Of a stretch of DNA of 51,717 nt, positions 1-14,080 are shown one piece after another. The notes under the pieces were generated by a model. That model did not search any database, was not told the DNA's origin, and saw only the letters and a program-made list of their open reading frames with translations. The first letter of the stretch is position 1. Every line of letters starts with the position of its first letter. The stretch is from NCBI GenBank assembly GCA_002773615.1, contig PFAP01000035.1, positions 6,782 to 58,498 on the forward strand, given 5' to 3'. Both the position numbers and the translations under genes were made by a program. This DNA is from Candidatus Falkowbacteria bacterium CG10_big_fil_rev_8_21_14_0_10_39_11 (GTDB lineage Bacteria; Patescibacteriota; Patescibacteriia; UBA11705).

Positions 1-2
1 TG

Positions 3-281
3 ACGTGGGAATTTTGCGGCGAAGTGATAGATTACGACTCTACGGATAATGCGGAAACAAAACTATTGAAACTTTTGGTACATAATACAATAAAAGTTGG
101 AGATACAATCGAGTTGGTCGTGCCGAGACAAACAAATACGTCAATAACAATTGATAAGTTGTATGATCATGACATGAAAGAAATAACAGACGCTCATGGT
201 GGACAAGACACCATTGTATTCACGCCAAGTGATTTGATATTACCAGAGAAAACTTTACTCAGACGGAAAATTGAGAAATAA
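3..281 (+). CDS. Peptidase U32 family protein, C-terminal end (partial)
   Basis: The reading frame is already open at the left edge (TWEFCGEVIDYD...), so this is the 3' end of a longer gene cut by the window; the GTG at 24 is internal. The visible ~90 residues match the small beta-barrel that closes U32 proteins: a KVGDTIELVVPR strand, a D-x-D turn (YDHDMKEI), and a final LLRRK. U32 proteins include collagenase-like peptidases and the TrhP/YegQ-type tRNA hydroxylation factors; the catalytic half is outside the window, so the subfamily cannot be decided. It ends 84 bases before ruvA on the same strand. Moderately sure of the family, unsure of the role. Confidence 0.68.
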   Translation, partial: TWEFCGEVIDYDSTDNAETKLLKLLVHNTIKVGDTIELVVPRQTNTSITIDKLYDHDMKEITDAHGGQDTIVFTPSDLILPEKTLLRRKIEK

Positions 282-365
282 GCGACTTTGAGGTACAATA
301 TAAAAGTAAATATAGCAAGTAATGCGAACTATACTATCGTCTAACTAGCTTAATTCGCAGCGTCT

Positions 366-947
366 ATGATCGCATATATAAAGGGAACAATTATTGATAA
401 GGGAGAAACTTACTTTGTGGTGAAAACTGAACAAATCGGTTATAAGATTTTCCCAACTAAAAAAATATTGCTCGAAAACAATATTCATAATGAAGTTGAG
501 TTGCGTATTTATCATCATATAACAGAAAATGCTCAGTCACTGTATGGCTTTACAACAATTGACGAACTCAATTTGTTCGAAAAATTGATTTCCGTTTCCG
601 GCATTGGGCCGAAAACTGCTATTGGAGCCTTTGGTGTCGCTGAAGCCTCGGATATTCGGTCTGCGATCATAAATGGCGACTCATCAATACTCAAGCAAGT
701 GTCAGGGATTGGAACCAAAACGGCTGAACGAGTGGTGCTTGAATTAAAAAATAAACTGTCCGGATTGGTCGGGTTTGACACCAAGACATCGACGGAACTC
801 ATGAGTGTCTCTGATTCACTTGAAGCTTTAACCTCACTGGGATACTCAGAACAAGAAGCCCGCCAAGCGTTGCAAAAAGTGCCCGCTCACATTATGACAG
901 CAGAAGAAAAAGTTAAAATCGCATTACAGTTTTTACAAAAAAATTAA
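366..947 (+). CDS. ruvA: Holliday junction branch migration protein RuvA
   Basis: 193 aa, the normal RuvA length. The N-terminal OB-fold begins MIAYIKGTIIDKG and carries the YGF turn. The middle has the two helix-hairpin-helix motifs that grip junction DNA: VSGIGPKTAIGAFG (about residues 77-90) and VSGIGTKTAERVVLELK (about 112-128). The last ~45 residues (SLGYSEQEARQAL) are domain III, which contacts the RuvB motor. RuvA tetramers hold Holliday junctions while RuvB drives branch migration. The ATG at 366 gives the canonical N-terminus. No ruvB or ruvC lies beside it here. It is followed after 3 bases by the FemX-like gene, so the two are probably co-transcribed. Confidence 0.97.
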   Translation: MIAYIKGTIIDKGETYFVVKTEQIGYKIFPTKKILLENNIHNEVELRIYHHITENAQSLYGFTTIDELNLFEKLISVSGIGPKTAIGAFGVAEASDIRSAIINGDSSILKQVSGIGTKTAERVVLELKNKLSGLVGFDTKTSTELMSVSDSLEALTSLGYSEQEARQALQKVPAHIMTAEEKVKIALQFLQKN

Positions 948-950
948 ACC

Positions 951-1973
951 ATGAAAATCAAACACGTACAATTCGCAGAAAAAGAAACATGGAATACTTT
1001 TGTGGCTGATTCAGCTATGGGATCTTTTTTACAGACCTATGACTGGGGTGAACTACAAGAAAAACTGGGATATAAAGTCTGGCGATTGGTTGTAACTGAG
1101 AGAAGTGAATGGCTGGCGGTAATTTCTTTTTATAAAATTAAGCTAAAATTGGGGCAGAGTATGTTATATGCGCCAAAGGGACCGGTTTTAATCACAAATA
1201 AAAAATCACAAATAAATAAAAAAGAAGTTTTTGAGTTGTTGACACACGAAATTAATAAAGTTGCGAAACAAGAGAAAGTTTTGAGTTTTGAACTTGATCC
1301 GGAGACAAATGACCCCGCCTGGGTGCAAATATTAGAAGAAAATGATTTTCTAAAAACAAAGATGGATGCCCAACCGAGGCATACATTAATTTTGGATTTA
1401 ACAAAAACAGAAGCAGAAATCATTGCCAACATGCACAGCAAAACCAGATATAACATTCGTCTTGCCGGTAAAAAGGGAGTAACAGTGACAATTGATAATG
1501 ACCGATTCAAGGATTTTTGGGATCTATTGAAAAAGACTGAAGCCCGACAAAATATAAACATGCAGCAAGAATCTTATTTCAAGCATCTGCTGCAACTACC
1601 ATTGGTAAAGTTATATCTGGCGGAAAAAGACGGCAAGGTGATTGCCGCCAACATAATGATTTTTTGCAATAAAACCGCCATATACCTCTTTGGTTCATCA
1701 GATTATGAATATAGAAATATCATGGCTCCCCACCTGCTCCAATGGCAAGCAATCAAGGATGCCAGAGATTCTAATTTTGCCCATTATGATTTTTGGGGAG
1801 CAGCACCAAAAGACGCCAATGGACGAGAACAAAATTGGGGCGGGTTTACCAGATTTAAAATGGGTTTTTCACCTGATGCGGATATTACCGAGTACATTGG
1901 AACATTTGAAAAAATATACAAACCTGGACAATTGGGAGTTTACCGTATCTTGCAAAACATCAAATCGCATTAA
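951..1973 (+). CDS. FemAB/FemX-like peptidoglycan aminoacyltransferase
   Basis: 340 aa, typical of single FemX-type enzymes, which add amino acids from aminoacyl-tRNA to the lipid II stem peptide in the cytoplasm. The N-terminus has the family opening (W..FV.....GSFLQTYDWGELQEKLGY.VWR) and a YAPKGPVL strand. The C-terminal half has the second acetyltransferase-like fold: TRYNIRLAGKKGV, then YLFGSSDYEYRNIMAPHLLQWQAIKDA and YDFWGAAP. The coiled-coil arm of FemA is not obvious, which suits the FemX type. The start lies 3 bases after ruvA. A promoter for the next gene follows at once, so this is probably the end of the operon. It fits an organism with a cross-linked wall. Confidence 0.88.
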   Translation: MKIKHVQFAEKETWNTFVADSAMGSFLQTYDWGELQEKLGYKVWRLVVTERSEWLAVISFYKIKLKLGQSMLYAPKGPVLITNKKSQINKKEVFELLTHEINKVAKQEKVLSFELDPETNDPAWVQILEENDFLKTKMDAQPRHTLILDLTKTEAEIIANMHSKTRYNIRLAGKKGVTVTIDNDRFKDFWDLLKKTEARQNINMQQESYFKHLLQLPLVKLYLAEKDGKVIAANIMIFCNKTAIYLFGSSDYEYRNIMAPHLLQWQAIKDARDSNFAHYDFWGAAPKDANGREQNWGGFTRFKMGFSPDADITEYIGTFEKIYKPGQLGVYRILQNIKSH

Positions 1974-1980
1974 TTTATCC

Positions 1981-2009
1981 TTGACAATGACACTTAATTA
2001 AAGTACTTT
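1981..2009 (+). promoter_or_regulatory. Sigma70-type promoter for the small membrane protein pair
   Basis: TTGACA at 1981-1986, a 17-base spacer and TACTTT at 2004-2009. The start of translation at 2039 follows about 24 bases after the expected transcript start, with a strong GAGGAGG ribosome site. Confidence 0.72.
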
Positions 2010-2038
2010 AGAATGAAACCACAACTGAGGAGGATGGG

Positions 2039-2308
2039 ATGTTAAAAAAATTGACTCATAGCTGGATGTTGCAGTGGAATAAATATATCTCATTCAAAAT
2101 CTTGAATATAACCTGTCTGATCACGATGATTTTGGGCCTAGCTCCGATTCTGCCCGAAGAATGGAGAATACTGCTAAGCTTGATTTTTATTGGTTTTTTA
2201 GCCATTAACTTTTTGTGTGTTGCGACGCATCCATCAATCTATAATGTAATGAATTCCGATAACGATGAAAAGGATAAAATCCATCCCAGAGATGAGGAGG
2301 GAAAATGA
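2039..2308 (+). CDS. Small two-helix membrane protein, unknown function
   Basis: 89 aa. Two hydrophobic segments are visible (about residues 22-37 and 43-62), followed by a charged tail (NSDNDEKDKIHPRDEEGK). The N-terminus MLKKLTHSWMLQWNKYISFKILNI resembles that of the next reading frame, so the two are probably paralogues. The start is supported by GAGGAGG upstream and a consensus promoter. The stop TGA overlaps the ATG of the next frame (ATGA at 2305-2308), a layout typical of translational coupling. I do not recognise a family. Confidence 0.7.
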   Translation: MLKKLTHSWMLQWNKYISFKILNITCLITMILGLAPILPEEWRILLSLIFIGFLAINFLCVATHPSIYNVMNSDNDEKDKIHPRDEEGK

Positions 2309-2511
2309 TTACAAAATTACTTATTGCCTGAAAACATGAGTGGAGTTATGGCTACTTATTCAAACTGATTAATATTCTAGTTTTGCTGTGTATCCTGTTT
2401 CTAATCCTGCCGGTATTTAGTACGGTGATAAAGATTGTCATTGGTGCCATGGGATTAATGGCGGTTGTGACTGTATTAGTCGGTGTGTTTCATACAGCTA
2501 AACGATTGTAA
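2305..2511 (+). pseudogene. Second small membrane protein, interrupted by an in-frame TGA
   Basis: From the ATG that overlaps the previous stop, the frame reads MITKLLIA, then TGA at 2329-2331, then KHEWSYGYLFKLINILVLLCILFLIL... to TAA at 2509-2511, 69 codons in all. Beyond the TGA the frame encodes two clean hydrophobic helices and a basic end (HTAKRL). Aligned with the upstream protein, the TGA falls exactly on a tryptophan (HSW-MLQW against IA-stop-KHEW), so one TGG to TGA change explains it. It could be a recent pseudogene, a sequencing error or a read-through codon. A terminator follows directly. Confidence 0.6.
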
Positions 2512-2513
2512 CT

Positions 2514-2536
2514 CCCGTAAAATTACGGGATTTTTT
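2514..2536 (+). terminator. Intrinsic terminator after the membrane protein pair
   Basis: Stem CCCGTAA / TTACGGG (2514-2520 with 2523-2529), followed by six T at 2531-2536. It separates this operon from the guide-array transcript. Confidence 0.85.
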
Positions 2537-2620
2537 GTATTGTAAATTTACAACGGCTATTAATTTTTTAATGCATAACTTGTCATATTTTGAGGCTCTC
2601 TAAGTATGCCAAGCCAGCTA

Positions 2621-2649
2621 TTGACAAAAATAAGGGAAAATGTTAATTT
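2621..2649 (+). promoter_or_regulatory. Promoter of the TIGR array
   Basis: TTGACA at 2621-2626, exactly 17 bases, TAATTT at 2644-2649. The predicted transcript start (about 2656) lies just before the first hairpin unit, whose stem begins at 2664 (or 2658 counting a weaker A/T extension). It would transcribe the left array and then the tas gene. Confidence 0.78.
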
Positions 2650-2663
2650 TATTCATTGAAAAC

Positions 2664-4005
2664 ACCTGGGGACTATGTGCTGGCTGTCAACTTGACGAAA
2701 TACGGCGTGTCCCCAGGTTTTTTTCAAAAATAACTGGCCGATCCGGACTCTGTGAGAACTCACAATCAACAGACTGTCTGGTTTTGATCTGTATGCAGGG
2801 ACGACCGAGCGTCTGTTTTTGAACCAAAGTATTGCTATTCCTGCAATTTACGGCTAAAATGGTTGGACGATAACAGGCATGTTGTTAGCAACAATCCTTG
2901 CTCTGTCCCACCAATTCAATGAACATGAGCAGATGTTTAGATGTCTGTTCACTTGAACAGCGGTTGTTGTGTCCTATCAATCTAAAATCTCTGGGACGAA
3001 TCAAGGTTTGTCATTGACAAGGTCCAGCCTGTCTCTGGGTTTGATTTAAAATGACTGAACGCTCGCTTCCCTGTGCTATCGCACGATTGACCCCGAGTTC
3101 GGTCATGTTTGAAAATTTTGGCTAGACTGCCAGTGGAGTGTTTGATAACGATGGTCCCACTGTCTAGCTATCAAACAAAAAGAGGACGAACCACTCGTAG
3201 TGGAAACACGATATTCGACGTGTCCTCACTGTTCTTTTCAACGCTGACGTAAACATAGATGTAGCAAATACGTATGCTACCGTGTCGGCAAATAATTATG
3301 GCAAGGACGGACGAGCTCAGGAGTATTTAAACGCCTGGGTTTGTGTCTGTTCTTGCCGCTTTTCTCTTGGGGTTAACTGCAACTACGTAAATTTGACAGT
3401 AAAACCTAGAAGAAAGGTGAGGAAGACTATGGGAGCCATGTGAGAACACACGATCCCCCCTCTGTTTTCCTCACCATAATTTATGAGTAGACGTGTTTTG
3501 GTGTGTCTATATAGACGATACAACCCATGTCTGCTCCCCTTTTAATGTCGTGCGCGACTGTAAATTCTGGAGGACGAGATCAGGACTGTTTACTAACCAA
3601 TGGAACAGTGTCCTCCAAACCCCTTAGCCGGAACTAACGCGGTCTTGTCCCGAGGGACGCATAGTGAGGTGTTCCGGTTTTCTGTATAGTTTGAAAATGA
3701 AGGGACCACACCATCTCTGTTTTCGAACGAAGGGAGGTCTGTTCCTTCAAACTGAATCAAAGACGAATGGGACGATGTGTGAAAACACGTATTTCCCATT
3801 GTCCACCCCTGTTCTTTGAATTAAATTATCAGGACCATAATCAACGTGTCACTTTGACGCAGTGGAACTTGTCCTGAAATCTATCATGGAGACTACGTAG
3901 TGCTTGTTGTAAAAACCAAGAAGCGCCTGTTTCCAAAACTTTGGCAAGAGTGAACGGTGTTCAGACTGTTCCCAAGAAACGAACGAATTCTTGTTTTCTC
4001 TTGCC
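2664..4005 (+). repeat. TIGR array, left part: 20 guide units (pre-tigRNA)
   Basis: Twenty hairpin units at 56-83-base spacing (one 116-base gap). Each is: 5' stem ending GAC/AAC; 2 nt; spacer A (9 nt); apical hairpin TGTN..N'ACG (or ACC/ACA); spacer B (9 nt); 2 nt usually ending in T; complementary stem starting GTC/GTT. Core positions and spacers A/B: 2674-2708 TGTGCTGGC/AAATACGGC; 2740-2775 TCCGGACTC/ATCAACAGA; 2803-2836 CCGAGCGTC/AAAGTATTG; 2869-2904 TAACAGGCA/ATCCTTGCT; 2935-2970 TTAGATGTC/GCGGTTGTT (weak stem); 2998-3030 ATCAAGGTT/AGGTCCAGC; 3061-3096 TCGCTTCCC/ATTGACCCC; 3128-3161 CCAGTGGAG/ATGGTCCCA; 3188-3221 ACCACTCGT/ATATTCGAC; 3249-3283 AAACATAGA/TATGCTACC; 3313-3344 GCTCAGGAG/CCTGGGTTT; 3428-3463 TGGGAGCCA/ATCCCCCCT; 3493-3528 GTTTTGGTG/ATACAACCC; 3576-3609 GATCAGGAC/AATGGAACA; 3635-3670 ACGCGGTCT/CATAGTGAG; 3707-3740 CACCATCTC/AAGGGAGGT; 3765-3800 ATGGGACGA/TATTTCCCA; 3836-3870 TAATCAACG/CAGTGGAAC; 3894-3928 CGTAGTGCT/AAGAAGCGC; 3956-3992 TGTTCAGAC/AACGAATTC. 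The 32-37 nt cores match the roughly 36-nt tigRNAs known for the family. Stretches 3358-3412 and 3537-3567 look like decayed units. No protein-coding signal is seen. Confidence 0.9.
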
Positions 4006-4119
4006 GCTTTTCTCTTGCGACTCAAATCGAGCAGATGGCTAGGAAATGGGAGGCAGAAGAAAGGTGGACCTTAACAATTTAACTTCCCTGTCCAGTAACG
4101 GACGCCTGACATACAAACT

Positions 4120-4136
4120 GTTCTCACGTAGAGAAC
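4120..4136 (+). promoter_or_regulatory. Hairpin directly before the tas ribosome site
   Basis: GTTCTC / GAGAAC (4120-4125 with 4131-4136) with loop ACGTA, ending one base before the AAGGAGG ribosome site of the tas gene. It resembles the apical loop of an array unit (TGTTCTC...GAGAACA). It could mark the end of the array, be a processing site, or affect translation of the protein. Confidence 0.5.
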
Positions 4137-4148
4137 AAAGGAGGAATC

Positions 4149-5693
4149 ATGGTCAGACACATTGGTATTCGACATCGGGTCAAGCAGACACGTGAAGGTG
4201 AAGCCAAGCCGACTCAGGTATGTGTTCTGGTTGGTGATAACGTAACATCTTATGATCTGGCGACTGAGACTGACGAACTGGACTGGGTGCTCGGCCAATT
4301 CCCTACTTCTTGGCGACTGGCCACTCAAGCTGACGAGACGGACCTGGTGATTCAGAAGCTCCAGGAAAAGCGGCCGCATCATATTCGCCGCAAGAAGGTG
4401 CGCAAGAATCAAGACCCTGAGGCTCTGAATGCTGACGGTTTTGTTGTCGTGGAAGAAAATGATCTTTATTTCCTGCTGGAAATCCCGGCTGAGACTGATG
4501 GTCTTGGCCGCGGTGATGTGGTGGCGATGGCACTGGGTGGCTCTGGCGACCGACTGGCTTTTGCTTTGTCGAAGCAGGCTGAATCCTTTGCCAATGGCAC
4601 CAAGATCATGCGCATCAAGCCCATGGATCTCAAATTCCAGCGGGAAGATCGACTGCAGCGTGACAAGAATGATGATGCTCAGACTCTGGCTGAGTTGGTG
4701 CGTGATTATGCTACCCTCTTTTTCAAGACAACTCGCAAGGATCGTGACTTGATTCGCCTGGTTGAGGCCTGGCGGAACCGAGTTGAAGCCATGAAGGCCA
4801 GAATCGGATCTGAACAGCGGCTGCGATCACACATGATCGGCAAGATTTTCTGTTCGGAAGAAGGCCAGTATCCTGAAGGCGAGATTGAACTGCTGTATGA
4901 AAAAGAAAGAAGCAATGACCGAGTAATCCAGGCTCTGGCTGAAGAGCAGAAGGCTCGTGAGAAAGAAGTGTCAACGCTGCTACGCTCACTGGATGTTTAC
5001 AATGAACTTTTTGTACCAATCAAGGGTATGGGGCCGATGATTGCAGCTCGAATCATTGTGGCCGTCGGTGACGTCAGACGTTTCCCCACCGCACCGAAGC
5101 TCAAGGCGTTTCTCGGAGCACATGTCAAGCGCGGTGGTGAGAATGGTGATCCGTCGCCGAGACTGCAGTTCCCGCGGCGGAGAACCGGAGAGACTGCGAA
5201 CTGGCATCCGGATGGTCGTCAGGCGCTCTATCTACTGGCAGACCAGTTCAACCGAAACCCTGATTCTGAATGGGGTCAGAAGCTCCGCGAATATAAGGTC
5301 AAGGTTCGAGCCAAGCATGGTAATGGCGAACCAGTGATGGTCCGCTCCGGTCTGGTCGATGCATATCGCGCTGCTGAACAGCTGTTCCTGGAAATGTATT
5401 ACCTTGATGATGTCATTATGGGTCACCGAGAAATCACGAACCTAAAGGACTATGAAGCTTGGGTCAAAGACCTAATGCATCAGTGTTTGGCTCTTGATTA
5501 TGAAAAGTTTGATGAAAATGATATGGGTACTTTGGAAGAAAAGCTCAAAGCTCTCACGCCAAAGGATGAAGGCAAGATGATCTCTATCTATTCCAACGGT
5601 CACATTCATCGCATGGCTTCATGGAAAACGGTCACCAAGTTTGTAGAATGGCTGTGGCGTGAGTGGACTCGCCTGGAAGAACGTAATCGGTAA
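4149..5693 (+). CDS. tas: Tas-like protein (IS110/Nop-type RNA-guided effector) of the TIGR system
   Basis: 514 aa. Residues 285-326 (LFVPIKGMGPMIAARIIVAVGDVRRFPTAPKLKAFLGAHV) are the helical Gx-GP...F...K(L)-AFLG motif shared by the IS110 C-terminal domain and the Nop domain that binds kink-turn guide RNAs. Residues 97-190 resemble the IS110 RuvC-like part: VVAMALGGSG, then GTKIMRIKPMDLK, then the acidic segment RDKNDDAQTLAELV (D172, D175, D176). The glutamate expected in IS110 near VVAM(E) is not there, so nuclease activity is uncertain. Residues 195-285 form a charged helical linker; residues 1-90 and 420-514 are unrecognised. GC is visibly higher than in neighbouring genes. AAAGGAGG lies 4 bases before the ATG. 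It sits between two arrays of paired 9-nt spacers, the decisive context. The alternative, a mobile IS110 element, lacks any boundary or bridge-RNA-like single copy. Confidence 0.82.
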   Translation: MVRHIGIRHRVKQTREGEAKPTQVCVLVGDNVTSYDLATETDELDWVLGQFPTSWRLATQADETDLVIQKLQEKRPHHIRRKKVRKNQDPEALNADGFVVVEENDLYFLLEIPAETDGLGRGDVVAMALGGSGDRLAFALSKQAESFANGTKIMRIKPMDLKFQREDRLQRDKNDDAQTLAELVRDYATLFFKTTRKDRDLIRLVEAWRNRVEAMKARIGSEQRLRSHMIGKIFCSEEGQYPEGEIELLYEKERSNDRVIQALAEEQKAREKEVSTLLRSLDVYNELFVPIKGMGPMIAARIIVAVGDVRRFPTAPKLKAFLGAHVKRGGENGDPSPRLQFPRRRTGETANWHPDGRQALYLLADQFNRNPDSEWGQKLREYKVKVRAKHGNGEPVMVRSGLVDAYRAAEQLFLEMYYLDDVIMGHREITNLKDYEAWVKDLMHQCLALDYEKFDENDMGTLEEKLKALTPKDEGKMISIYSNGHIHRMASWKTVTKFVEWLWREWTRLEERNR

Positions 5694-5708
5694 TTTGCCA
5701 TCGTCTCT

Positions 5709-6203
5709 GCAACGATTGTTATTATGTGTTTAAAAACCTATTAACTGTCTCAAAATTATCCATTACATAATCAGCAGATAAACGAGAACAAACCTCTGGA
5801 TATTCACTCGAACGAGAAAGCTGTTGTTCTCGTACCACTTCGATAAACAGTAAATCGGGAACGTTCTGGCTCCTGTTATATAATGAATTGTTGCATGTTC
5901 CCGATTTACTCTCAGAAAACTAAAAACGACCGGGCTCTTGCACTGTGACGAATAAGCGAATGTTTCCGCAATCTCGTGGGACTACGGAACCCCTGTTTCA
6001 AGACGATGCATCGCATGTCCCGACTTTGGAATATACGATCAGGACAAAGCACGACATGTTTGAAAACGACCTTTGCCTTGTTCTGAACTGTTGATTGCGG
6101 AGCGTCAATGTTCTGTCCCCGATGGACGCAGGGAGAAGTGCTCCAAATACATTAGAGACTATGAAGTAGATGTCGTCACAAACGACTAGAACGATCATGT
6201 CTC
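5709..6203 (+). repeat. TIGR array, right part: 7 guide units plus 1 degenerate
   Basis: The same unit design as upstream of the tas gene, same strand, starting 16 bases after its stop codon. Core positions and spacers A/B: 5714-5746 TTGTTATTA/ACCTATTAA (degenerate, stem mostly lost); 5790-5825 ACCTCTGGA/AGAAAGCTG (8-bp perfect stem ACGAGAAC/GTTCTCGT); 5863-5896 TCTGGCTCC/AATTGTTGC (14-bp perfect stem, the longest); 5928-5961 CCGGGCTCT/AATAAGCGA (weak stem); 5983-6016 CGGAACCCC/ATGCATCGC; 6046-6079 AGCACGACA/ACCTTTGCC; 6104-6139 CAATGTTC/CAGGGAGAA (stem GAGC/GCTC, spacer A 8 nt); 6160-6198 TGAAGTAGA/AGAACGATC (long 17-nt loop). Apical hairpins again read TGTN...N'ACG. It is closed by a strong terminator. 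Confidence 0.87.
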
Positions 6204-6210
6204 ACCTAAA

Positions 6211-6233
6211 CGAAGTAATAACTTCGTTTTTTT
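6211..6233 (+). terminator. Intrinsic terminator of the TIGR-Tas transcript
   Basis: Stem CGAAGT / ACTTCG (6211-6216 with 6221-6226), loop AATA, then seven T at 6227-6233. It lies 8 bases after the last guide unit. Confidence 0.92.
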
Positions 6234-6240
6234 GTTTACC

Positions 6241-6269
6241 TTGACATAACTAGTAAAATACTATAAAAT
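6241..6269 (+). promoter_or_regulatory. Sigma70-type promoter for the 71-aa membrane protein
   Basis: TTGACA at 6241-6246, 17-base spacer, TAAAAT at 6264-6269. It begins right after the TIGR terminator. Confidence 0.75.
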
Positions 6270-6321
6270 ACATAGTCCGATCTTTTCCTTCCAGCAATTA
6301 CCACCACTGCAGGAGTGCAAC

Positions 6322-6537
6322 ATGAAAACATTGAGTCGATTTCTGCGAAGACTGCGAAGAGGTCTGGGAAGCGGACTTTGGGGTAAGGTCATCCGTAAAT
6401 ACCCGATTCACTTTTCGGTGACGATTGCGCTGATGGTTGCGAACTTCTGGCTGCCGCTCTTGGTAATTCCTAGTGTGCTTTCAGCGGTATTGCTGGTTCT
6501 TCGTATGGTTGCCGATCAAGTAAGACCTAACTGGTAA
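6322..6537 (+). CDS. Small basic membrane protein, unknown function
   Basis: 71 aa. An arginine-rich amphipathic N-terminus (MKTLSRFLRRLRRGLGSGLWGK) precedes a long hydrophobic stretch, residues about 33-60, that could form one or two helices, then a short hydrophilic end. The start is supported by GCAGGAG nine bases upstream, its own promoter and its own terminator, so it is an independent single-gene unit. No family is recognised. Its position next to the TIGR locus may be chance. Confidence 0.62.
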   Translation: MKTLSRFLRRLRRGLGSGLWGKVIRKYPIHFSVTIALMVANFWLPLLVIPSVLSAVLLVLRMVADQVRPNW

Positions 6538-6550
6538 AATCTAATCTGTA

Positions 6551-6577
6551 AATAGCATAAACATGTGCTATTTTTTG
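6551..6577 (+). terminator. Intrinsic terminator
   Basis: Stem AATAGCA / TGCTATT (6551-6557 with 6566-6572) running into a T tract. It ends the 71-aa membrane protein transcript. Confidence 0.75.
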
Positions 6578-6604
6578 ATACTTCAAATATGGAATAAGTA
6601 ATTG

Positions 6605-6613
6605 TGGTATAAT
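6605..6613 (+). promoter_or_regulatory. Extended -10 promoter of the LTA-synthase-like gene
   Basis: TGGTATAAT, an extended -10 box with no good -35. It overlaps the nominal TTG start at 6602, which therefore cannot be the translation start. The transcript would begin near 6620, leaving a leader of about 18 bases. Confidence 0.6.
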
Positions 6614-6637
6614 ATATTTGTAAACAAAAATTTTCCA

Positions 6638-8578
6638 ATGATAAAAACAAAAATAAAAAATTACACATTATTTTCTCTTTTTTTGATAGTGCTGAATACT
6701 ATTTATTTTTATATTTATTTTTTATTACTCGATAGCAGCGTAACGTTACTATCGATTTTGTTTTTATTGTTTGGAGTTCTCAGCTACACTTTATTTATTC
6801 ATTTTTTCCGAGGATTGGTGTGGGAAATTATCAATTATCTTCTTATTGGTCTTTACTTTTTATTTACATTGGTGAACTTTGCCTATTTTAAGATTTTTGA
6901 TACATTCACTTCATTAAAAGGAACCGGAGTTGAACAGATAAACACATCTTTGCTGTCTCTTTTGAGTGATTATTTCTTTTTAGTGCCCATTTCATTATAC
7001 TTATTTTCCTTAATCACTTTTGTTGCAATCGTTTTTACTATAAAAAAATACGATACAAAAAGAGAAGCGGCGAAAGGAGAGGTTTTATTTCAAAATACAA
7101 CTATTTTATACAAGAATAAACGTAATTGGGCGGTACTGGCTCTAATCGTTGTCGCTTTTGTCGGTGTAAATCTGTTAGCTTTTTGGTGGACCAACTATAC
7201 GGCACAAAGACCCAAAGATTCATGGTGGAATGTCAGTGAACAAACCATTGATCTAGGTATTTGGGGACATGTATACAACACACTACTGGCAAAAAATCTG
7301 AATAATAAAACTCCACTTATAAATACAAATTTTCTCGAAAAATCGGAATATATAGAGGCAAATAACTTAGCAAAAACGAAATTACTTTATCAAGAAATAA
7401 AAAAACTTAGTCAAACATCGTCAACTCAAGAATTACCTAAGCTCACGGATAAACCCAACGTGATCGTAATTCAGCTAGAATCAATCGGACAGTTTGCACT
7501 GGACAATGAACCCTCTGTAATGCCATTTCTCAAGTCTTTAATGGAGACACATCCAACTGTAAAAAATTTTTACGCCAATAGTTGCGAAACCATAAATGCG
7601 GAGTTTTCAACCTTGTGCAGTTTTTGGCCTGATTCATACGAACCAATTCCATATTCTCATTTAGATAAAGACTATTATTGTCTACCTCAGGTTTTACAAG
7701 AAAGATATGGATATGAAACGTATTTTTTCCATGCCAATGAACCGGAATTCTGGCGCCGAGATGTTTTGGCACCAAAATGGGGTTTTAATAATATTTTTCA
7801 AACACCACCGATCAAGAAAAAAGCTTATGATGGCGTAGTTCTAGACAAAATGCTGACACTAACACAGGCCGAAGATAAGCCATATTTTGCATATGTGGTT
7901 ACCTTTAACAGCCATTCACCTCACAATCAAGAATTAATTGACTATCATAAACAAACAAACGGCTTTACAATCACACCATTTCAAGGATCAATTAACGATA
8001 ATTTTGATTCAATTGAAATAGACGAAGAAACCCTACGAAATTATTTTGGTTTCTTGAAATCAACCGATGACATGCTAAAAGATTTCTTTGCCAAAGCGGA
8101 AAAGCTCGGGGTGTTGGATAATACAATTATTCTACTACACAACGATCATCGATACTATAATTTTACTGATGGCACACTGGAAGATTTTTATCTTTACAAT
8201 CGCCTGCCTATGACCATGATCTTTCCAGGTGACAACAACGTTAATTTCCCAAATGTAGCCAGTCACATTGATTTGGCGCCAACACTACTGCAAATGGTTG
8301 AGCAGGAAAATTATAATCAGCCAGACAACTTTATCGGAACCAGTCTGTTTGATGAAAATTTCAAACCGCAGGCAGTTAACAAATGTCTAAGCAACGTATA
8401 TTTCGTTGATGAGAAATCAATTATTCAAGGCAATGCGAAAACCGAACAATATACTTTTTCTTTGACGCCGGATAATTTTCAGGATGAACAAAAACAGTAC
8501 TGGCAAGGATTTTTCAATGAGTTGATAAAAGTCAGTGACGATACTTTATTTGGCAATGAAATAAAAAAAACTGAATAA
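6638..8578 (+). CDS. LtaS-like membrane sulfatase-fold phosphoglycerol transferase
   Basis: 646 aa from the ATG at 6638; upstream codons overlap the promoter. Five hydrophobic helices fill roughly the first 190 residues, then an extracellular alkaline-phosphatase-type domain. Motifs: NVIVIQLES (metal-binding Glu), CETINAEFSTL with the threonine at the nucleophile position of LtaS (GKTSDAEF), YFFHAN..FWRRD, and IILLHNDHR (Asp-His metal ligands). These enzymes polymerise or transfer glycerol-phosphate, or modify other envelope polymers, on the outer membrane face. The key residues look intact. The substrate cannot be told from sequence. It is a single gene between a terminator and transposase remains. 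Confidence 0.85.
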   Translation: MIKTKIKNYTLFSLFLIVLNTIYFYIYFLLLDSSVTLLSILFLLFGVLSYTLFIHFFRGLVWEIINYLLIGLYFLFTLVNFAYFKIFDTFTSLKGTGVEQINTSLLSLLSDYFFLVPISLYLFSLITFVAIVFTIKKYDTKREAAKGEVLFQNTTILYKNKRNWAVLALIVVAFVGVNLLAFWWTNYTAQRPKDSWWNVSEQTIDLGIWGHVYNTLLAKNLNNKTPLINTNFLEKSEYIEANNLAKTKLLYQEIKKLSQTSSTQELPKLTDKPNVIVIQLESIGQFALDNEPSVMPFLKSLMETHPTVKNFYANSCETINAEFSTLCSFWPDSYEPIPYSHLDKDYYCLPQVLQERYGYETYFFHANEPEFWRRDVLAPKWGFNNIFQTPPIKKKAYDGVVLDKMLTLTQAEDKPYFAYVVTFNSHSPHNQELIDYHKQTNGFTITPFQGSINDNFDSIEIDEETLRNYFGFLKSTDDMLKDFFAKAEKLGVLDNTIILLHNDHRYYNFTDGTLEDFYLYNRLPMTMIFPGDNNVNFPNVASHIDLAPTLLQMVEQENYNQPDNFIGTSLFDENFKPQAVNKCLSNVYFVDEKSIIQGNAKTEQYTFSLTPDNFQDEQKQYWQGFFNELIKVSDDTLFGNEIKKTE

Positions 8579-8686
8579 ACAAATTTTGGTACTAAAACTG
8601 GCAAAAATACTTTTATAAATTCAATCTTGTGCAAAAAGGATAACATTTTACTGAGTGTTGTCTTTTTTTTCTCTTATAATTAAGAC

Positions 8687-9210
8687 ATGAAAAACATCAA
8701 GAAAAATAATGAGTTACCATACTTTGTGACCATTGATGTTTTCTACAAATATCCGTTGTTCAATAACACAAAATTTGCTGAGATACTATTGGATAACACA
8801 ATTTACGATCAAAAAAGTTGCGATTCGATCTTTTGTCTTGGGCAATCATGCCAACACATGTGCACATGATAATAAAAACTAGCAATGACAAAAATAATAT
8901 CTCAAAAATTATCCAGTTGATTAAATATTGAACGGCCAGAGATATCAAGCAGACAGGCGAATCTCCCAACCCAACCCGACTGCCAGGCAGTCGGTTGGGT
9001 GGGAGAAGTTATAACGTTTCGACATATAGACGACATGCAAACTCAATTTGGCAGCAGAGTTTTTATAGAAGAATTTTTAATGATGAGTATAATCTTGAGC
9101 GTGCTCTCAACTATGTCATCAACAACCACACTAAACACAATCTCCCAGATAACTTTGGCCAGATCCCACAAACTTATTTTGATCAAAAACTAATTTATAA
9201 ACTGTTATGA
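8687..9210 (+). pseudogene. Decayed REP-associated tyrosine (Y1) transposase
   Basis: The parts of a RAYT/IS200-like transposase lie in two frames. First MKNIKKNNELPYFVTIDVFYKYPLFNN (8687 onward), then after a one-base slip in the A-run at 8811-8816, LRFDLLSWAIMPTHVHMIIKT, which carries the HUH motif (HVH). That frame runs to 9210 through NISKIIQLIKY, a TGA at 8929-8931, a palindromic insert, and SIWQQSFYRRIFNDEYNLERALNYVINNH..HNLP, the typical family C-terminus with the catalytic tyrosine region. The frameshift and stop make it inactive. It ends across the start of comEC (9207), so it is probably an old insertion just before the competence genes. Confidence 0.82.
8963..9005. repeat. Long GC-rich palindrome inside the transposase remnant
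   Basis: CTCCCA..CCCAACCCGACTGCC pairs with GGCAGTCGGTTGGG..TGGGAG over about 20 base pairs with almost no loop. Its core CTGCC/GGCAG is shared with the palindrome at 47971-48026. REP-like elements are the natural substrates of RAYT transposases, so a REP-like element lying within the transposase gene is plausible. Confidence 0.6.
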
Positions 9211-10676
9211 ATAAGTCCAGCAAAATTTTCTTCTTTTGGCTCTTTTTCTTGGCTGGTATATTTATTAGCAATTATTTTTTAATTAATTCCCACTTTATAT
9301 ATGTACTGTGTGTTTTTGTTCCAATTGCCCTGCTGATTATTCGACAAAAAATGATGGCCGTACTCCTATTCGCTTTAATCATTGGTATCTGGCGCCTGCA
9401 AATCGACATCCCCACCATAAATACAGGCCATATTGCATACTATATTGATCAAAAAATAACTTTTGAAGCCATAATATCAGAAGTTGACACTCGAAGTGAT
9501 CATGTAAAATTGACAGCTGAGACAGAATTCATAATTATAAATAAGCAAATCAGTAATGTGCGCGGAAAAATATTGATAAAAAATAGTTTGTATCCCAAAT
9601 ACAACTATGGTGACAAAATTCAGGTAGAATGCAAAATCGTAAAGCCCGAACCAATTGAAAATTTTCGTTATGATCGATATTTAGCACGTTACAATATTTA
9701 TGCGACCTGTTATCAACCGAGAATTCAAGTAATCGCAACCAATCAAGGTAATTATGTTCTGGCGGCAATATTAAATTTTAAAAAAAAGATCGAGAATATT
9801 ATTAACAAAACTATCCCTGAGCCACAGGCGGCTTTTTTATCCGGAATCTTGCTTGGGACAAGAACGGGAATCCCTCAAAATCTGCTAGACAAATTCAATA
9901 CTACTGGGATCACTCATATAATTGCCATTTCCGGCTATAATATAACAATAATTGCCACGATTCTGATGAATTTAACCTTGGCTTTGTACATACCAAGGAA
10001 AAAAGCTTTTTGGCTGATATTAATTACCATAATCGCATTCACAATTCTAGCGGGAATGAGCGCCGCCGTAGTGCGAGCCAGTATTATGGGTATGTTAGTG
10101 TTGTATGTAAAATATTTGGGACGAAAATCTTCTACGACTAACATTCTAATTTACAGCGCCACGCTAATGTGTCTCATCAATCCAAAAATTCTGCGAGATG
10201 ACGCTGGCTTTCAATTGTCATTCATGGCGACTATTGGTCTCATATATTTTGAGCCAATTGTCAGTAAATATTTTCAGTGGGTAACTCCAAAATTTGGGAT
10301 CCAAGAAAATTTTGTCTGCACCATATCAGCCATAATTTTAACTACTCCATTGATTCTCTATCAATTTGGGCGGCTGTCAATCGTGGCCCCGATTGTCAAC
10401 TTGTTGATTTTGTCGATAATTCCCCCAATTATGCTAGTAGGATTTATTCAAGTAATCTTTGGAGCCATTTCAATCTCCCTGGGACAAGCAATCGGACACA
10501 TCTCCTGGCTAATGATGGAATATATTATTCAAATTGTGAATGTTTTTTCATCTTGGATATGGGCTTCAATCAATATTCATTTCAATGTTTATTTAATGCT
10601 CAGTAGTTATCTGCTCATTTTTTATTTAATAAAAAAGAAAAAATATGTACAAACACAAGAGAATCTTATTCATTAG
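9207..10676 (+). CDS. comEC: ComEC/Rec2 competence channel, membrane part
   Basis: 489 aa. An N-terminal pair of helices, an OB-like extracellular domain (ITFEAIISEVDTRSDHVKL...RGKILIK), then the competence domain: PEPQAAFLSGILLGTRTGIP, FNTTGITHIIAISGYNITII, AAVVRASIMGML and DDAGFQLSFMATIGLIY, with about ten membrane helices. ComEC passes single-stranded DNA into the cytoplasm during natural transformation. The usual C-terminal metallo-beta-lactamase domain is missing from this chain and is encoded by the next, overlapping gene (32-base overlap). The ATG at 9207 overlaps the end of the transposase remnant. With the pilus operon in the same window, it suggests a DNA-uptake capability. Confidence 0.92.
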   Translation: MNKSSKIFFFWLFFLAGIFISNYFLINSHFIYVLCVFVPIALLIIRQKMMAVLLFALIIGIWRLQIDIPTINTGHIAYYIDQKITFEAIISEVDTRSDHVKLTAETEFIIINKQISNVRGKILIKNSLYPKYNYGDKIQVECKIVKPEPIENFRYDRYLARYNIYATCYQPRIQVIATNQGNYVLAAILNFKKKIENIINKTIPEPQAAFLSGILLGTRTGIPQNLLDKFNTTGITHIIAISGYNITIIATILMNLTLALYIPRKKAFWLILITIIAFTILAGMSAAVVRASIMGMLVLYVKYLGRKSSTTNILIYSATLMCLINPKILRDDAGFQLSFMATIGLIYFEPIVSKYFQWVTPKFGIQENFVCTISAIILTTPLILYQFGRLSIVAPIVNLLILSIIPPIMLVGFIQVIFGAISISLGQAIGHISWLMMEYIIQIVNVFSSWIWASINIHFNVYLMLSSYLLIFYLIKKKKYVQTQENLIH

Positions 10677-11544
10677 CTTATTCATAATTTCGGTATCAAT
10701 TTCATACTGGTATTTTCATAATCAAATTTTTTTTCTGCTACAAAATATCAGTCCGACAGTCGAAGGTGAAAAGTTATTGTCAGTATCGTTTCTAGATGTG
10801 GGCCAAGGAGATTCCATATATATTAAAACTCCGGATCAAACAGACATATTAATAGACGGCGGACCAGATAATAAAGTTCTAAGTGAACTTGGCGAAACCA
10901 TGGACTTTTGGGACCATCAAATCGACATTATGATTCTCACCCATCCTCACGCTGATCATATTGTGGGTTTAATTGAAGTCCTAAAACGCTATGAAGTTCA
11001 ATCGGTTTACTATACTGGCGTGATTTATCCAAGCCGAGAGTATGTAATTTGGCTTAGTTTAATTGAAGAACAAGACATCCCATTGTTTGTGGTAACCAAG
11101 GAGTTTGAATTGAGACTGGCTGACAAGACCGAACTGGATTTCTTGTATCCAAATAGAGACATTACTCATGAAAGATTTGAAGAAGTTAATAACTCATCTA
11201 TTGTGACTAAATTAATTTACGATCAGACTTCATTTTTATTTACCGGAGATGCAGAAAAAGAAGTGGAAGCAGAACTGATTGAACGTGATATTAATTTACA
11301 AGCAACTGTTCTGAAATTAGGACATCATGGGAGTAATTCATCCAGCAGCGAAGCTTTTTTACAAGCTGTCAATCCAAAGTTGGCAATAATCCAAGTTGGA
11401 ACGAACAATAGCTTTGGTCATCCGCATTTAATTACATTAAAAAGATTAGAACGAATTGGAATGCCAATATTGAGAAATGATTTTGAGGGAACAATTAAAC
11501 TCGAAAGCGATGGAATCAATATTTATAGAAATTATTCTAATTAA
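10645..11544 (+). CDS. ComEC-type metallo-beta-lactamase domain protein (split ComEC C-terminus)
   Basis: 299 aa. One N-terminal hydrophobic segment (residues ~5-25) and then a lactamase fold: VSFLDVGQGDSIYIKTPDQTDILIDGGPD, the metal motif THPHADHIVGL, TGDAEKEVE, and LGHHGSNSSSS. This is the domain that normally ends ComEC and is proposed to degrade the non-transported DNA strand. Being membrane-anchored on its own, it probably sits outside next to the channel encoded by the overlapping upstream gene. All metal ligands appear present. Split ComEC occurs in several CPR genomes. Confidence 0.9.
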   Translation: MYKHKRILFISLFIISVSISYWYFHNQIFFLLQNISPTVEGEKLLSVSFLDVGQGDSIYIKTPDQTDILIDGGPDNKVLSELGETMDFWDHQIDIMILTHPHADHIVGLIEVLKRYEVQSVYYTGVIYPSREYVIWLSLIEEQDIPLFVVTKEFELRLADKTELDFLYPNRDITHERFEEVNNSSIVTKLIYDQTSFLFTGDAEKEVEAELIERDINLQATVLKLGHHGSNSSSSEAFLQAVNPKLAIIQVGTNNSFGHPHLITLKRLERIGMPILRNDFEGTIKLESDGINIYRNYSN

Positions 11545-11585
11545 CTTAATTAATCTAATTACTCTAAATAATAACCAATAAACAA

Positions 11586-11966
11586 ATGTCAAACAAAGAA
11601 AAAAATAATAGTCGTAAATATGACTTGGAGGAAAGAACTGCATCTTTTGGAGAGCAAATCATTAAACTTGCAAAAATTATACCTTATAATCCTGTTACTC
11701 AGAGACTAATTCCTCAACTTGTTGCGGCTGGAACTAGTATAGGAGCAAACTATTGCGAGGCAGATGATGCTGTCTCACCAAAATACTTCAGAAATAAAAT
11801 TGGGTTTTGTAAAAAGGAAAGCAGAGAAACAAAACATTTTTTACGAATGCTAAAAATTGCCACCCCAAGACTAAACGAAGAAATTAATATTTTATTGCAG
11901 GAAGCAAGAGAATTAAATTTGATTTTCAATTCTATTTTTATTAAAGTAAACAGAAAGTTGGAATAA
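11586..11966 (+). CDS. Four-helix-bundle protein (S23/rRNA-intervening-sequence type)
   Basis: 126 aa. Family hallmarks: YDLEERTASFGEQIIKLAKIIP..P.TQRLIPQLVAAGTSIGANYCEADDAVSPKYFRNKIGFCKKESRETKHFLRML. These small helical proteins (related to Avd of diversity-generating retroelements) were first found inside 23S rRNA insertions; their function is unknown. Here it is a free-standing gene 41 bases after the lactamase gene. No rRNA and no retroelement template repeat are seen nearby. A second, broken member lies at 34881-35252. Confidence 0.85.
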   Translation: MSNKEKNNSRKYDLEERTASFGEQIIKLAKIIPYNPVTQRLIPQLVAAGTSIGANYCEADDAVSPKYFRNKIGFCKKESRETKHFLRMLKIATPRLNEEINILLQEARELNLIFNSIFIKVNRKLE

Positions 11967-12059
11967 TTGGCATTACTTTAGGTAAATTAGTGTAATTAGA
12001 ATAATTAGATCAATTTATTTTTTATCTTGAAAAATAAAAAAAATGGTTTGTTAACCATT

Positions 12060-13259
12060 TTACGAAGAAAATTCCTTGCTCAACATGCTGGCACACTGAT
12101 TGTAAATCATCACTACACCGGCGATCAATAAGCCAGACCAGAATCCAACGCTGACAATGCCAACGATTAGAATAAATGTCGTCGCCAGACCGGTCCAGAA
12201 CCGCTTCATGGCGCCAGAAACTGAGGGACTTTTACCTAGCAAGCTCAAAAGTAAAGTAATGACAATACCTCTCATCAGCAAGCCATCAATAAACAAAGCG
12301 AGAATGCCATTGGAAGCAATAATAATAACCACAATAGAAGGTACTCCAATAATAATGGCCTCGAACATTTTAACATTGTCAAGTTTCGTGTCATCAGTAC
12401 CGGCATCATACATCAGAAGATTGAAGATTAGAGAAAGAATTGATCCCATACTCAGGAAAACACAGATGTAATCAACAACCTTCCAATCGGCAAGTGAAGC
12501 AGAGTCATAAACCCCATTGAACCAAGGCACAATATCAAAGACTGACTTAGCACTCAAAATACTAGCTAGGAAGATGGTCACACCAATGATTATAAAATCA
12601 ATGATCGCCTCTTTCAAACGATACACATTGACCTTGGTGGCAGCAAAAAGGATGGTGTTGTAAGCCAAGTGAGCTACAATAGAAGCGACCAATCCGTGCT
12701 TCACAAAGATATACGAAAAGAAGACACCGACAATAAACTGGGGCAATACCATATAGATTTTTCGCTTATCTTTTCTATCTTTGAAATTCAACAGATGGAT
12801 CAAACTCCACAAACTATTTCCGATAATCAAGAAGGTGTAAAAGCCAACTGTACCACTGGCTGGGAACATCTCGGGAAGAACCCCAAGAAACAGCCATCGA
12901 GCCACAACCTCTTCCAAGGCAATCAGAATGACAAAATTTTGGAAGTGATAATCTGCATCTTGATGCAAAGCAAAAATATCATCCAGAGCATGCCCACCAA
13001 CATTTACTCTCAAGATATACTTGAACAACAAAAAGATGGTCATTGAAATGATAAAGGTAACACTGGCAATCAATAGAAGAGCTGGTAAAGAACTGAGAAA
13101 CCCTTGATCACTGCGCGAAATTTCTGCAACCCCTCCGGTAACAAATACGCCAAATTCATTGAAAATACTGATATAAGGTGAGAAAAACAAACCAATACCC
13201 AGCATAACCAAAAAAGTCGTGTACTTTGACCAAATTCGTTGCTTTTTGAGTAGCTCCAT
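12060..13259 (-). CDS. CPBP-family intramembrane metalloprotease
   Basis: 399 aa from the ATG at 13259, chosen because AGGAGG precedes it by seven bases; the longer frame would begin with the ribosome site itself. About ten membrane helices. Catalytic motifs of the CAAX protease and bacteriocin-processing (Abi) family: EEVVARW (Glu-Glu...Arg), SLIHLLNF (His) and HLAYNTILF (His...Asn). These proteins cleave within the membrane or act in bacteriocin immunity; the substrate is unknown. The ~170-residue C-terminal part is an additional helical region not needed for the core. It stands alone, opposite in direction to its neighbours. Confidence 0.85.
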   Translation of the reverse strand: MELLKKQRIWSKYTTFLVMLGIGLFFSPYISIFNEFGVFVTGGVAEISRSDQGFLSSLPALLLIASVTFIISMTIFLLFKYILRVNVGGHALDDIFALHQDADYHFQNFVILIALEEVVARWLFLGVLPEMFPASGTVGFYTFLIIGNSLWSLIHLLNFKDRKDKRKIYMVLPQFIVGVFFSYIFVKHGLVASIVAHLAYNTILFAATKVNVYRLKEAIIDFIIIGVTIFLASILSAKSVFDIVPWFNGVYDSASLADWKVVDYICVFLSMGSILSLIFNLLMYDAGTDDTKLDNVKMFEAIIIGVPSIVVIIIASNGILALFIDGLLMRGIVITLLLSLLGKSPSVSGAMKRFWTGLATTFILIVGIVSVGFWSGLLIAGVVMIYNQCASMLSKEFSS

Positions 13260-13388
13260 TCGTGTCCTCCTGTTTTGGGTCTTGAACACTACTTTTTAAC
13301 ATAATGAGTTAATTTTGTCAATAGCATGGTTTACAAGCGCTTAATTCTTCGCTATAATAAAAGCGTTTTAACCATAATTTTAAATTTT

Positions 13389-13961
13389 ATGAAAGAAAAA
13401 TCTCTAGTTCTCATCAAACCAGATGGTGTACAAAGAGCTTTGGTGGGAGAAATTATTGGCCGATTTGAGCGCTGCGGACTAAAAATCATTGGTTTGAAGG
13501 TGGTCAAGGCAACTCAGGAAATTGCCGGTGAACATTATGCCAATGATGAAAAATGGCTTTTGAGTGTCGGTGAAAAAGCGATTGAAGCCGCAAAAAAACG
13601 AGGTGATGAAGTGACTGAAACCGCCATGGAAATCGGACAACGCGTTCGTAATCAACTGATGGAATACATTGCCATGTCTCCGGTCATTGCGATATGTATT
13701 GAAGGACATAATGCAGTAGCCAAAATCAGAAAATTGGTTGGTGGTACAAATCCACAAGATGCTGAACCAGGTACTATTCGCGGAGATTATTCAATCGACT
13801 CATTCAAAATGGCTGATCAATCAGGCCGGCCAATTCAAAACCTAATTCATGCATCCGGAGAAGTGGCAGAAGCGGAACGAGAAATTAAGATCTGGTTCAA
13901 AGATGAAGAATTGTTTGACTGGGAACGAGCGGATGAAGCTCTTATTTATCGAACGGTTTAA
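13389..13961 (+). CDS. ndk: Nucleoside diphosphate kinase
   Basis: 190 aa from the ATG at 13389 (MKEKSLVLIKPDGVQRALVGEIIGRFE), which matches the family start; the longer frame adds an unrelated leader. Signature features: the KPDGVQR loop, GGTNPQDAEPGTIRGDYSID, and the NLIHASGEVAEAEREI segment containing the phospho-accepting His. An extra stretch of about 40 residues follows HYAND (EKWLLSVGEKAIEAAKKRGDEV...), making it longer than the usual ~140 aa, a variant seen in some archaea and CPR. It balances nucleoside triphosphate pools. It ends in its own terminator. Confidence 0.95.
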   Translation: MKEKSLVLIKPDGVQRALVGEIIGRFERCGLKIIGLKVVKATQEIAGEHYANDEKWLLSVGEKAIEAAKKRGDEVTETAMEIGQRVRNQLMEYIAMSPVIAICIEGHNAVAKIRKLVGGTNPQDAEPGTIRGDYSIDSFKMADQSGRPIQNLIHASGEVAEAEREIKIWFKDEELFDWERADEALIYRTV

Positions 13962-13973
13962 GATAAAAAAAAG

Positions 13974-13994
13974 CCTCCATTCTGGAGGTTTTTT
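13974..13994 (+). terminator. Intrinsic terminator after ndk
   Basis: CCTCCA / TGGAGG (13974-13979 with 13983-13988) followed by six T. Confidence 0.9.
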
Positions 13995-14080
13995 ATTTGC
14001 AAACATCAAGGAAATAGAGTAATATATGGTCAATGTGTCATTTAACAATTTTCAAAACATTCTCCAGAAAGGAGCTCGGA

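Follow-up and report, generated by a model that had tools for sequence, protein, structure and literature searches.

Unlike guide pairs within copied scaffolds of stem-loop TIGR arrays beside a TasR-like gene

Tandem interspaced guide RNA (TIGR) arrays of the stem-loop type have been described, as has a clade of TasR from the candidate phyla radiation (CPR) with an inactive RuvC and stem arrays (accessible part of PMC12045711). That part of the paper describes palindromic edges as variable and does not say how guides change. Literature searches gave one primary paper and one review that discuss tigRNAs in depth; a search of the review for a few terms returned nothing on duplication, recombination or the evolution of arrays. 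Here we describe a locus in a stretch of 51,717 nt (the window) from the genome of Candidatus Falkowbacteria bacterium CG10_big_fil_rev_8_21_14_0_10_39_11 (contig PFAP01000035.1). It consists of a stem-loop TIGR array next to a TasR-like gene, tas, and belongs to a Patescibacteria genome. In contrast to the published description, edges here recur in families, guide pairs differ inside copied scaffolds, and linkers form hairpins.

Each unit is a fixed scaffold made of a palindromic edge, box C (RACGA), a 9-nt guide, box D (TGT), a loop, a second box C (C'), a second 9-nt guide and a second box D. Linker hairpins connect some of the units. Dual-repeat TIGR-Tas systems likewise have 9-nt spacers in pairs, and copies at two related loci (L037 and L047) have retained both their loops and their edges. 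In the window, however, edge and loop sequences vary from unit to unit, so that the conservation of edge and loop repeats through the locus that marks the dual-repeat type is absent. IS110/IS621 transposases with a bridge RNA have a related fold, and PF02371 scores above cut-off in Tas, but the window has many guide units rather than one bridge RNA, and DEDD_Tnp_IS110 stays below its cut-off. As in CRISPR arrays, the scaffold is constant and the guides are variable. The differences from CRISPR are the lack of a constant direct repeat, guides that are 9-nt pairs, changes that affect copied units within the array instead of adding to one end, and a Cas1 that was not above cut-off in 19 of 20 tas genomes.

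Copied units and their guides in related loci

A Tas match at E ≤ 0.001 was present in 25 of the 285 genomes searched, the genome of the window (G000) included. We examined 23 non-redundant loci, the window among them, and left out stretches from the same genomes (L036, on the contig of L031; L043, as L033; L045, as L034). The named genomes are mostly metagenome-assembled, and the assembly of repeats in them may err; the loci L048 and L047 lie on contigs of 971 kb and 322 kb. Units were recognised by the pattern NAC-N11-TGT, loop, NAC-N11-TGT. Self-comparison revealed copied stretches in most of the 23 loci. In the relatives, arrays have grown by the copying of units, and of blocks of units with their linkers, and the guides of the copies differ as pairs and throughout their 9 nt, with no residue of an older shared guide.

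At L035 a block of ~320 nt upstream of tas (3360-3676) recurs downstream (5526-5839). Outside the interiors of its three units, 218 of 224 bases are identical (97%), and the last 125 nt of this count, which include a fourth hairpin with boxes that look degenerate by eye, differ at one base. The six spacers agree at 15 of 60 positions, which is the level of chance.

The sole congener compared, L031 (Candidatus Falkowbacteria UBA11705), is the nearest named relative of the window, and its Tas is about 62-64% identical (best segment). Five blocks in tandem make up the upstream array of L031, and their starts lie 236-270 nt apart. In every block a type-A unit (edge AAAGGTGGGGAGGAC) is followed by a linker, then by a type-B unit (edge GGGCAAGAGCGGAC, as in the window) and another linker. 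The A-to-B linker and arms are 79-95% identical between blocks, the values for block 4 being lowered because the unit end at 3471 was set 3 nt too far. There are several linker types, each common to only some blocks: the linkers that precede blocks 4 and 5 match at 102 of 107 positions (71 of 72 over the last 72 nt), and those before blocks 1 and 3 are alike in 126 of 159 columns, a 20-nt indel included. All ten guide pairs are different. The sequence-only reading that preceded this analysis had proposed to compare sister arrays for identical edges with changed spacers, and here the comparison was positive, edge and flank being repeated five times with spacers that differ each time. As a side observation, CCTGCC/GGCAGG palindromes make up a 20-nt insertion in an array linker at ~2620-2660 of L031; the similar linker that precedes block 3 lacks this insertion, which looks like a small repetitive element.

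A whole-unit screen, in which both edge arms had to be alike at 10 or more of 12 positions (single-strand counts), gave 100 edge-matched unit pairs in 13 of the 23 loci. Both guides were unlike in 95 pairs and both were kept in five; none had one guide kept and one replaced, also in a both-strand screen (96 unlike, 5 kept; L050 appears twice). Mean guide identity was 5.92 of 20 in the 95 unlike pairs, compared to 5.77 of 20 in the 1491 pairs with unlike edges from those loci. Pairs that kept their guides show 0-3 changes in 20, and of the 72 pairs whose outer flanks are well conserved none had an intermediate identity (12-16 of 20). For individual spacers whose adjoining sequence is identical at 21 or more of 25 positions (98 pairs, both strands), 88 pairs matched at 6 of 10 positions or fewer, none at 7, and ten at 8 or more. 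The edges form 22 families with 73 units and 68 distinct guide pairs, which implies at least 46 changes if each family had one ancestor. An identity profile over nine loci (34 pairs) is near 1 in the boxes and ~0.25 over the 9 nt that separate box C from box D. Over the same loci the 24-nt right flank stays at 0.64-1.0, and the left flank declines from ~0.9 near the box to ~0.35 at -24, out of register by indels.

At L050 the 9-mers differ between near-identical frames. On the reverse strand of L053, the units at 3943 and 4493 have identical edges and at least 20 of 22 guide letters in common, with one base changed in spacer B; this is a copy still holding its guides, beside copies without them. 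L042 (reverse strand) has one unit in three copies (5230, 5607 and 6203), two of which agree in all 22 guide letters despite differences in loop and edge, and the third of which has other guides. Shuffling of guides within an array was considered separately and received no support (1 of the 1491 unlike-edge pairs reached 13 of 20).

Copying with guide replacement, as the sequence-only reading had proposed for the window, is supported as a pattern by the three L035 units in their 97% identical setting and by the 95 of 100 pairs; the order of copy and replacement and the replacing agent do not follow from it. The pattern sets what needs explaining, namely guide pairs that change jointly and completely, 9 nt on each side, in a block-copied scaffold, and offers a first handle on guide renewal in arrays unrelated to CRISPR.

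The unit pair of the window and its linker hairpin

The proposal had been made from two units of the upstream array, said to share the stem GGCAAG...CTTGCC and the bases that follow it but not their spacers and loops. The features of this pair are:

3300..3357, plus strand: unit 1, with left arm 3300-3312 and right arm 3345-3357 forming a 13-bp edge stem (z-score -7.6); box C GAC 3310-3312, box D TGT ending 3346, spacers GAGCTCAGGAG and GCCTGGGTTTG
3358..3369, plus strand: first copy of the shared flank GCTTTTCTCTTG, forming the 5' arm of a linker hairpin
3408..3419, plus strand: shared 12-mer AGAAGAAAGGTG, copy 1, the 3' arm of the copy 1 linker hairpin, running on into the next unit's edge
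3943..4005, plus strand: unit 2, with edge stem 3943-3955 / 3993-4005, 12 of 13 paired (z-score -3.0); box C AAC 3953-3955, box D TGT ending 3994, spacers GGTGTTCAGAC and GAACGAATTCT
4006..4017, plus strand: second copy of the shared flank GCTTTTCTCTTG, forming the 5' arm of a linker hairpin
4055..4066, plus strand: shared 12-mer AGAAGAAAGGTG, copy 2, the 3' arm of the linker hairpin, in the tas leader

The coordinates given for the two units were exact, GGCAAG beginning at 3300 and 3943 and CTTGCC ending at 3357 and 4005, and both are followed by GCTTTTCTCTTG. The shared stem is present and longer than claimed, 13 bp instead of 6: GGCAAGGACGGAC and GTCTGTTCTTGCC pair at 13 of 13 positions, GGCAAGAGTGAAC and GTTTTCTCTTGCC at 12 of 13, and two stem pairs are altered on both sides between the units, as compensatory changes. 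Units with stems of at least six pairs are present in the window. The spacers do differ, with 3 of 10 positions alike for spacer B and 3 of 10 for spacer A (A by eye), which is chance level, as do the loops (tta and tcccaaga).

Between the two units the right arm and flank are identical at 22 of 25 positions and the left arm at 9 of 13. Their longest common exact string is 19 nt, TCTTGCCGCTTTTCTCTTG; over 300 first-order Markov simulations the longest repeat was 15 in the array region and 16 in the first 8 kb. Self-BLAST of the first 8 kb of the window gave no repeat at E ≤ 1e-4, which makes the pair a single, old case. The pair lies below the edge threshold of the screen described above and is not counted among the 100.

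The linker hairpin is closed by pairing of GCUUUUCUCUUG with AGAAGAAAGGUG, with z-scores of -3.7 and -2.4 for the window copies and -5.6, -4.8 and -2.3 for three linkers of L031. In both copies the start of AGAAGAAAGGTG is about 50 nt past that of GCTTTTCTCTTG; 0 of 3000 simulations produced a shared 12-mer at this distance. The stretch between GCTTTTCTCTTG and AGAAGAAAGGTG has no clear similarity between the copies; the outer arms are kept. The flank, which had been taken as a trace of copying, is indeed shared, but as one arm of a linker hairpin it is not a neutral scar and could persist by constraint. The window pair alone is therefore a weak proof of copying, and there it is the extent of identical sequence that carries the inference. 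The linker hairpins may serve as signals for processing.

In the last unit before tas, the window and L031 agree at 11 of 13 positions in the left arm and at 23 of 25 in the right arm and flank, and the guides are unlike. The tas leader of the window resembles that of L031, and the tas DNA of the two is 64% identical.

Explanations for the change of guides

We assign a probability of about 0.6 to the overall reading, in which units are copied in blocks and both guides are exchanged together while the scaffold is kept. The array would grow as units and unit blocks are copied along with their linkers. Both 9-nt guides of a copied unit would then be exchanged jointly for unrelated ones in one discrete event, an order of events that we infer, and edges, boxes and linkers would stay through the exchange. 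The window units would represent an old case, in which stem arms and linker-hairpin arms survive by pairing and the guides are unrelated. The engine might be homologous recombination of the ~35-nt unit interior with units of the same type from other strains, with edges and linkers acting as homology arms and selection for new targets, and the locus would need no dedicated adaptation gene. Recombination with the arrays of other strains is our leading guess, held tentatively and at somewhat less than even odds. It would account for paired change, clean boundaries, loops retained in part and the lack of a writer gene, and it would place the source of new guides in the population.

Several observations weigh against this reading. 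L053 supplies 56 of the 100 pairs, and pairs within one locus are not independent. The window shows one pair only, with a flank that is accounted for by the linker hairpin. At L040 the units at 5871 and 8063 are by eye a mixed case, with spacer A replaced and spacer B alike at 7 of 9 positions. Loops of replaced units are more alike than those of unmatched units in 11 of the 11 loci having such pairs (12 given), in a comparison whose unmatched set includes chance pattern matches; this retained likeness is unlike the outcome of a simple interior swap from an unrelated unit. Finally, no donor unit, strain series or target was found, which leaves the engine a guess. The place to look is strains with common edges and linkers at one unit, and natural targets are best sought with the guide pairs of recent blocks.

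The replacing agent could instead be an active guide-writing process encoded away from the locus, which would overwrite both 9-nt guides in one event up to the box edges with sequence from outside the array. We consider such a process unlikely, if still a serious contender; it would amount to an adaptation that rewrites old slots in pairs and does not add new ones.

Units might also be born with new guides in a CRISPR-like manner, each new unit being made from an old edge and receiving two guides at birth with no later replacement. This explains the paired, clean guide differences equally well, and the tandem blocks of L031 speak for it. However, L035 keeps the order, linkers and edges of three units plus the fourth hairpin across tas, and three births in the same order are unlikely, so that a block copy followed by change is simpler. 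The five pairs that retained their guides after copying also argue against birth with new guides, as does a Cas1 above cut-off in only 1 of 20 tas genomes, and we regard it as improbable.

For the window pair, constraint alone might suffice: edge and flank would be functional motifs, and the units need not be copies. The flank does pair with AGAAGAAAGGTG in both window copies and in L031, and the 23 of 25 positions noted above are kept between species with tas DNA at the identity given. On the other hand, 19 identical nt and a 9 of 13 arm identity exceed the needs of pairing, other units of the window array manage without such an edge and flank, and L035, L031 and the other loci are left unexplained. 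This account is, if anything, harder to credit than birth with new guides.

Still less credible is concerted evolution, in which units born apart with their own guides had their edges and linkers homogenised later by gene conversion while selection kept the guides. Multi-copy sequences often homogenise, and the edges recur as families within each array. Yet conversion tracts would have to halt repeatedly at the 9-nt spacers on both sides, the linker types of L031 are each limited to some blocks, and no pair with unlike edges has common guides in these loci.

Gradual hypermutation, with spacers mutated or selected letter by letter, for example by a reverse transcriptase (RT) diversifier, has next to no probability and is refuted as it stands: the spacers are the fast part of the unit and RT genes occur in 12 of 20 tas genomes, but the 100 pairs hold no intermediates, the guide-keeping pairs are nearly unchanged, and 8 of 20 tas genomes gave no RT match, including those of L037, L039, L047, L050 and L051, which show the pattern. 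RT genes are about equally frequent in genomes without tas (9 of 20), and the reverse-transcription signature that the sequence-only reading had suggested seeking was not found. In general, the pattern requires neither RT nor Cas1.

Tas protein, arrays and searches for genes and targets

The tas gene sits between two arrays. The remaining features of the locus are:

2663..4005, plus strand: upstream stem-loop array of about 16 units
2671-2710, 2746-2777, 2866-2906, 2995-3032, 3125-3163, 3185-3223, 3310-3346, 3425-3465, plus strand: units of the upstream array, box C to box D
3490-3530, 3573-3611, 3632-3672, 3704-3742, ~3762, 3833-3872, 3891-3930, 3953-3994, plus strand: units of the upstream array, continued, box C to box D
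~2774-2817, plus strand: additional unclear unit of the upstream array
4149..5693, plus strand: tas, 514 aa, TIGR-Tas family protein with a Nop/IS110-like fold, from profile, PDB and Foldseek matches
5777..6230, plus strand: downstream array, with clear units 5787-5827, 5860-5898 and 6043-6081, the rest degenerate

The upstream units at 2746, 3185, 3762 and 3891 were read partly by eye, and a terminator-like hairpin with a T run that follows the downstream array was read by eye. The tas product scored 122.8 bits with NCBIfam NF052498 (TIGR_Tas_endo; cut-off 100), a profile that 19 of 20 aligned relatives match at E ≤ 0.001. Its sole PDB sequence match is 9mty, a structure of TasR (accessible part of PMC12045711). 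A structure model built from five sequences (mean pLDDT 71.7) had 8wt9 as its best Foldseek match (E 4.8e-8), with 9mty at E 2.1e-7, and all 13 matches at E ≤ 0.001 were IS621, another IS110-type complex, TasR or TasH. PF02371 reached 28.1 bits (cut-off 21.3). The DEDD transposase domain PF01548 (20.3 bits, cut-off 29) and NCBIfam transpos_IS110 (46.5 bits, cut-off 140) remained below their cut-offs. The CPR clade of TasR is marked by insertions in the Nop domain and by loss of the RuvC catalytic residues. In the Tas of the window the first strand reads IGIRHRVK; in 20 relatives H9 and K12 are invariant and no acidic residue is present, an observation on the strand as such and not on a position aligned to Asp11 of TasR. 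At L035 the tas frame (3941-5237) is split into two open reading frames (ORFs) of 224 and 201 aa, by either a frameshift or an assembly error.

RuvA and FemAB are neighbours of the window locus and look chromosomal. Adaptation by a neighbouring gene was rejected as a candidate: in the fetched stretches tas is the only recurrent neighbour (ORFs of at least 80 aa, blastp 1e-5), and the other large groups of neighbouring ORFs are reading frames antisense to tas. No Cas1 was found in the own genome (84.8% complete); the one tas genome with Cas1 above cut-off is G001, where the congener's cas1 gene (C1:302704-303465) lies on another contig than the tas locus and far from it. Rfam gave no match within positions 1-15000 of the window, and viral records held no relatives of the Tas protein or the flank pattern, nor phage records any of the locus.

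Targets were sought in ribosomal RNA and in the genome itself. Spacers of the window and L031 showed no consistent enrichment when compared with the own genome's 23S rRNA, nor did L031 spacers when compared with 23S pieces of G001; the highest z-score, 2.8, came from L031 spacers against the 23S of the other species in the same sense. None of 106 spacers had a target in its own 16S, at the loci where one was available, and a 16S gene was not found in G000 or G001. The two window units, searched as A + rc(B) with up to 3 mismatches, had no target in the own genome, and two L031 units had no exact match in viral contigs. Targeting of rRNA or self by the guides is thus unsupported.

Two ORFs at 9207-11544 of the window read by eye like ComEC, one as the membrane part and one as the metallo-beta-lactamase part. 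They matter here since the recombination model would be fed by natural transformation. The window (2803-2813) and L031 (3585-3595) also have the spacer 11-mer GACCGAGCGTC in common, followed by TGT in both species; the edges and the partner spacers of the two units differ, and the chance of such a match is roughly estimated at ~1e-3. The 11-mer may be the mark of a shared target.
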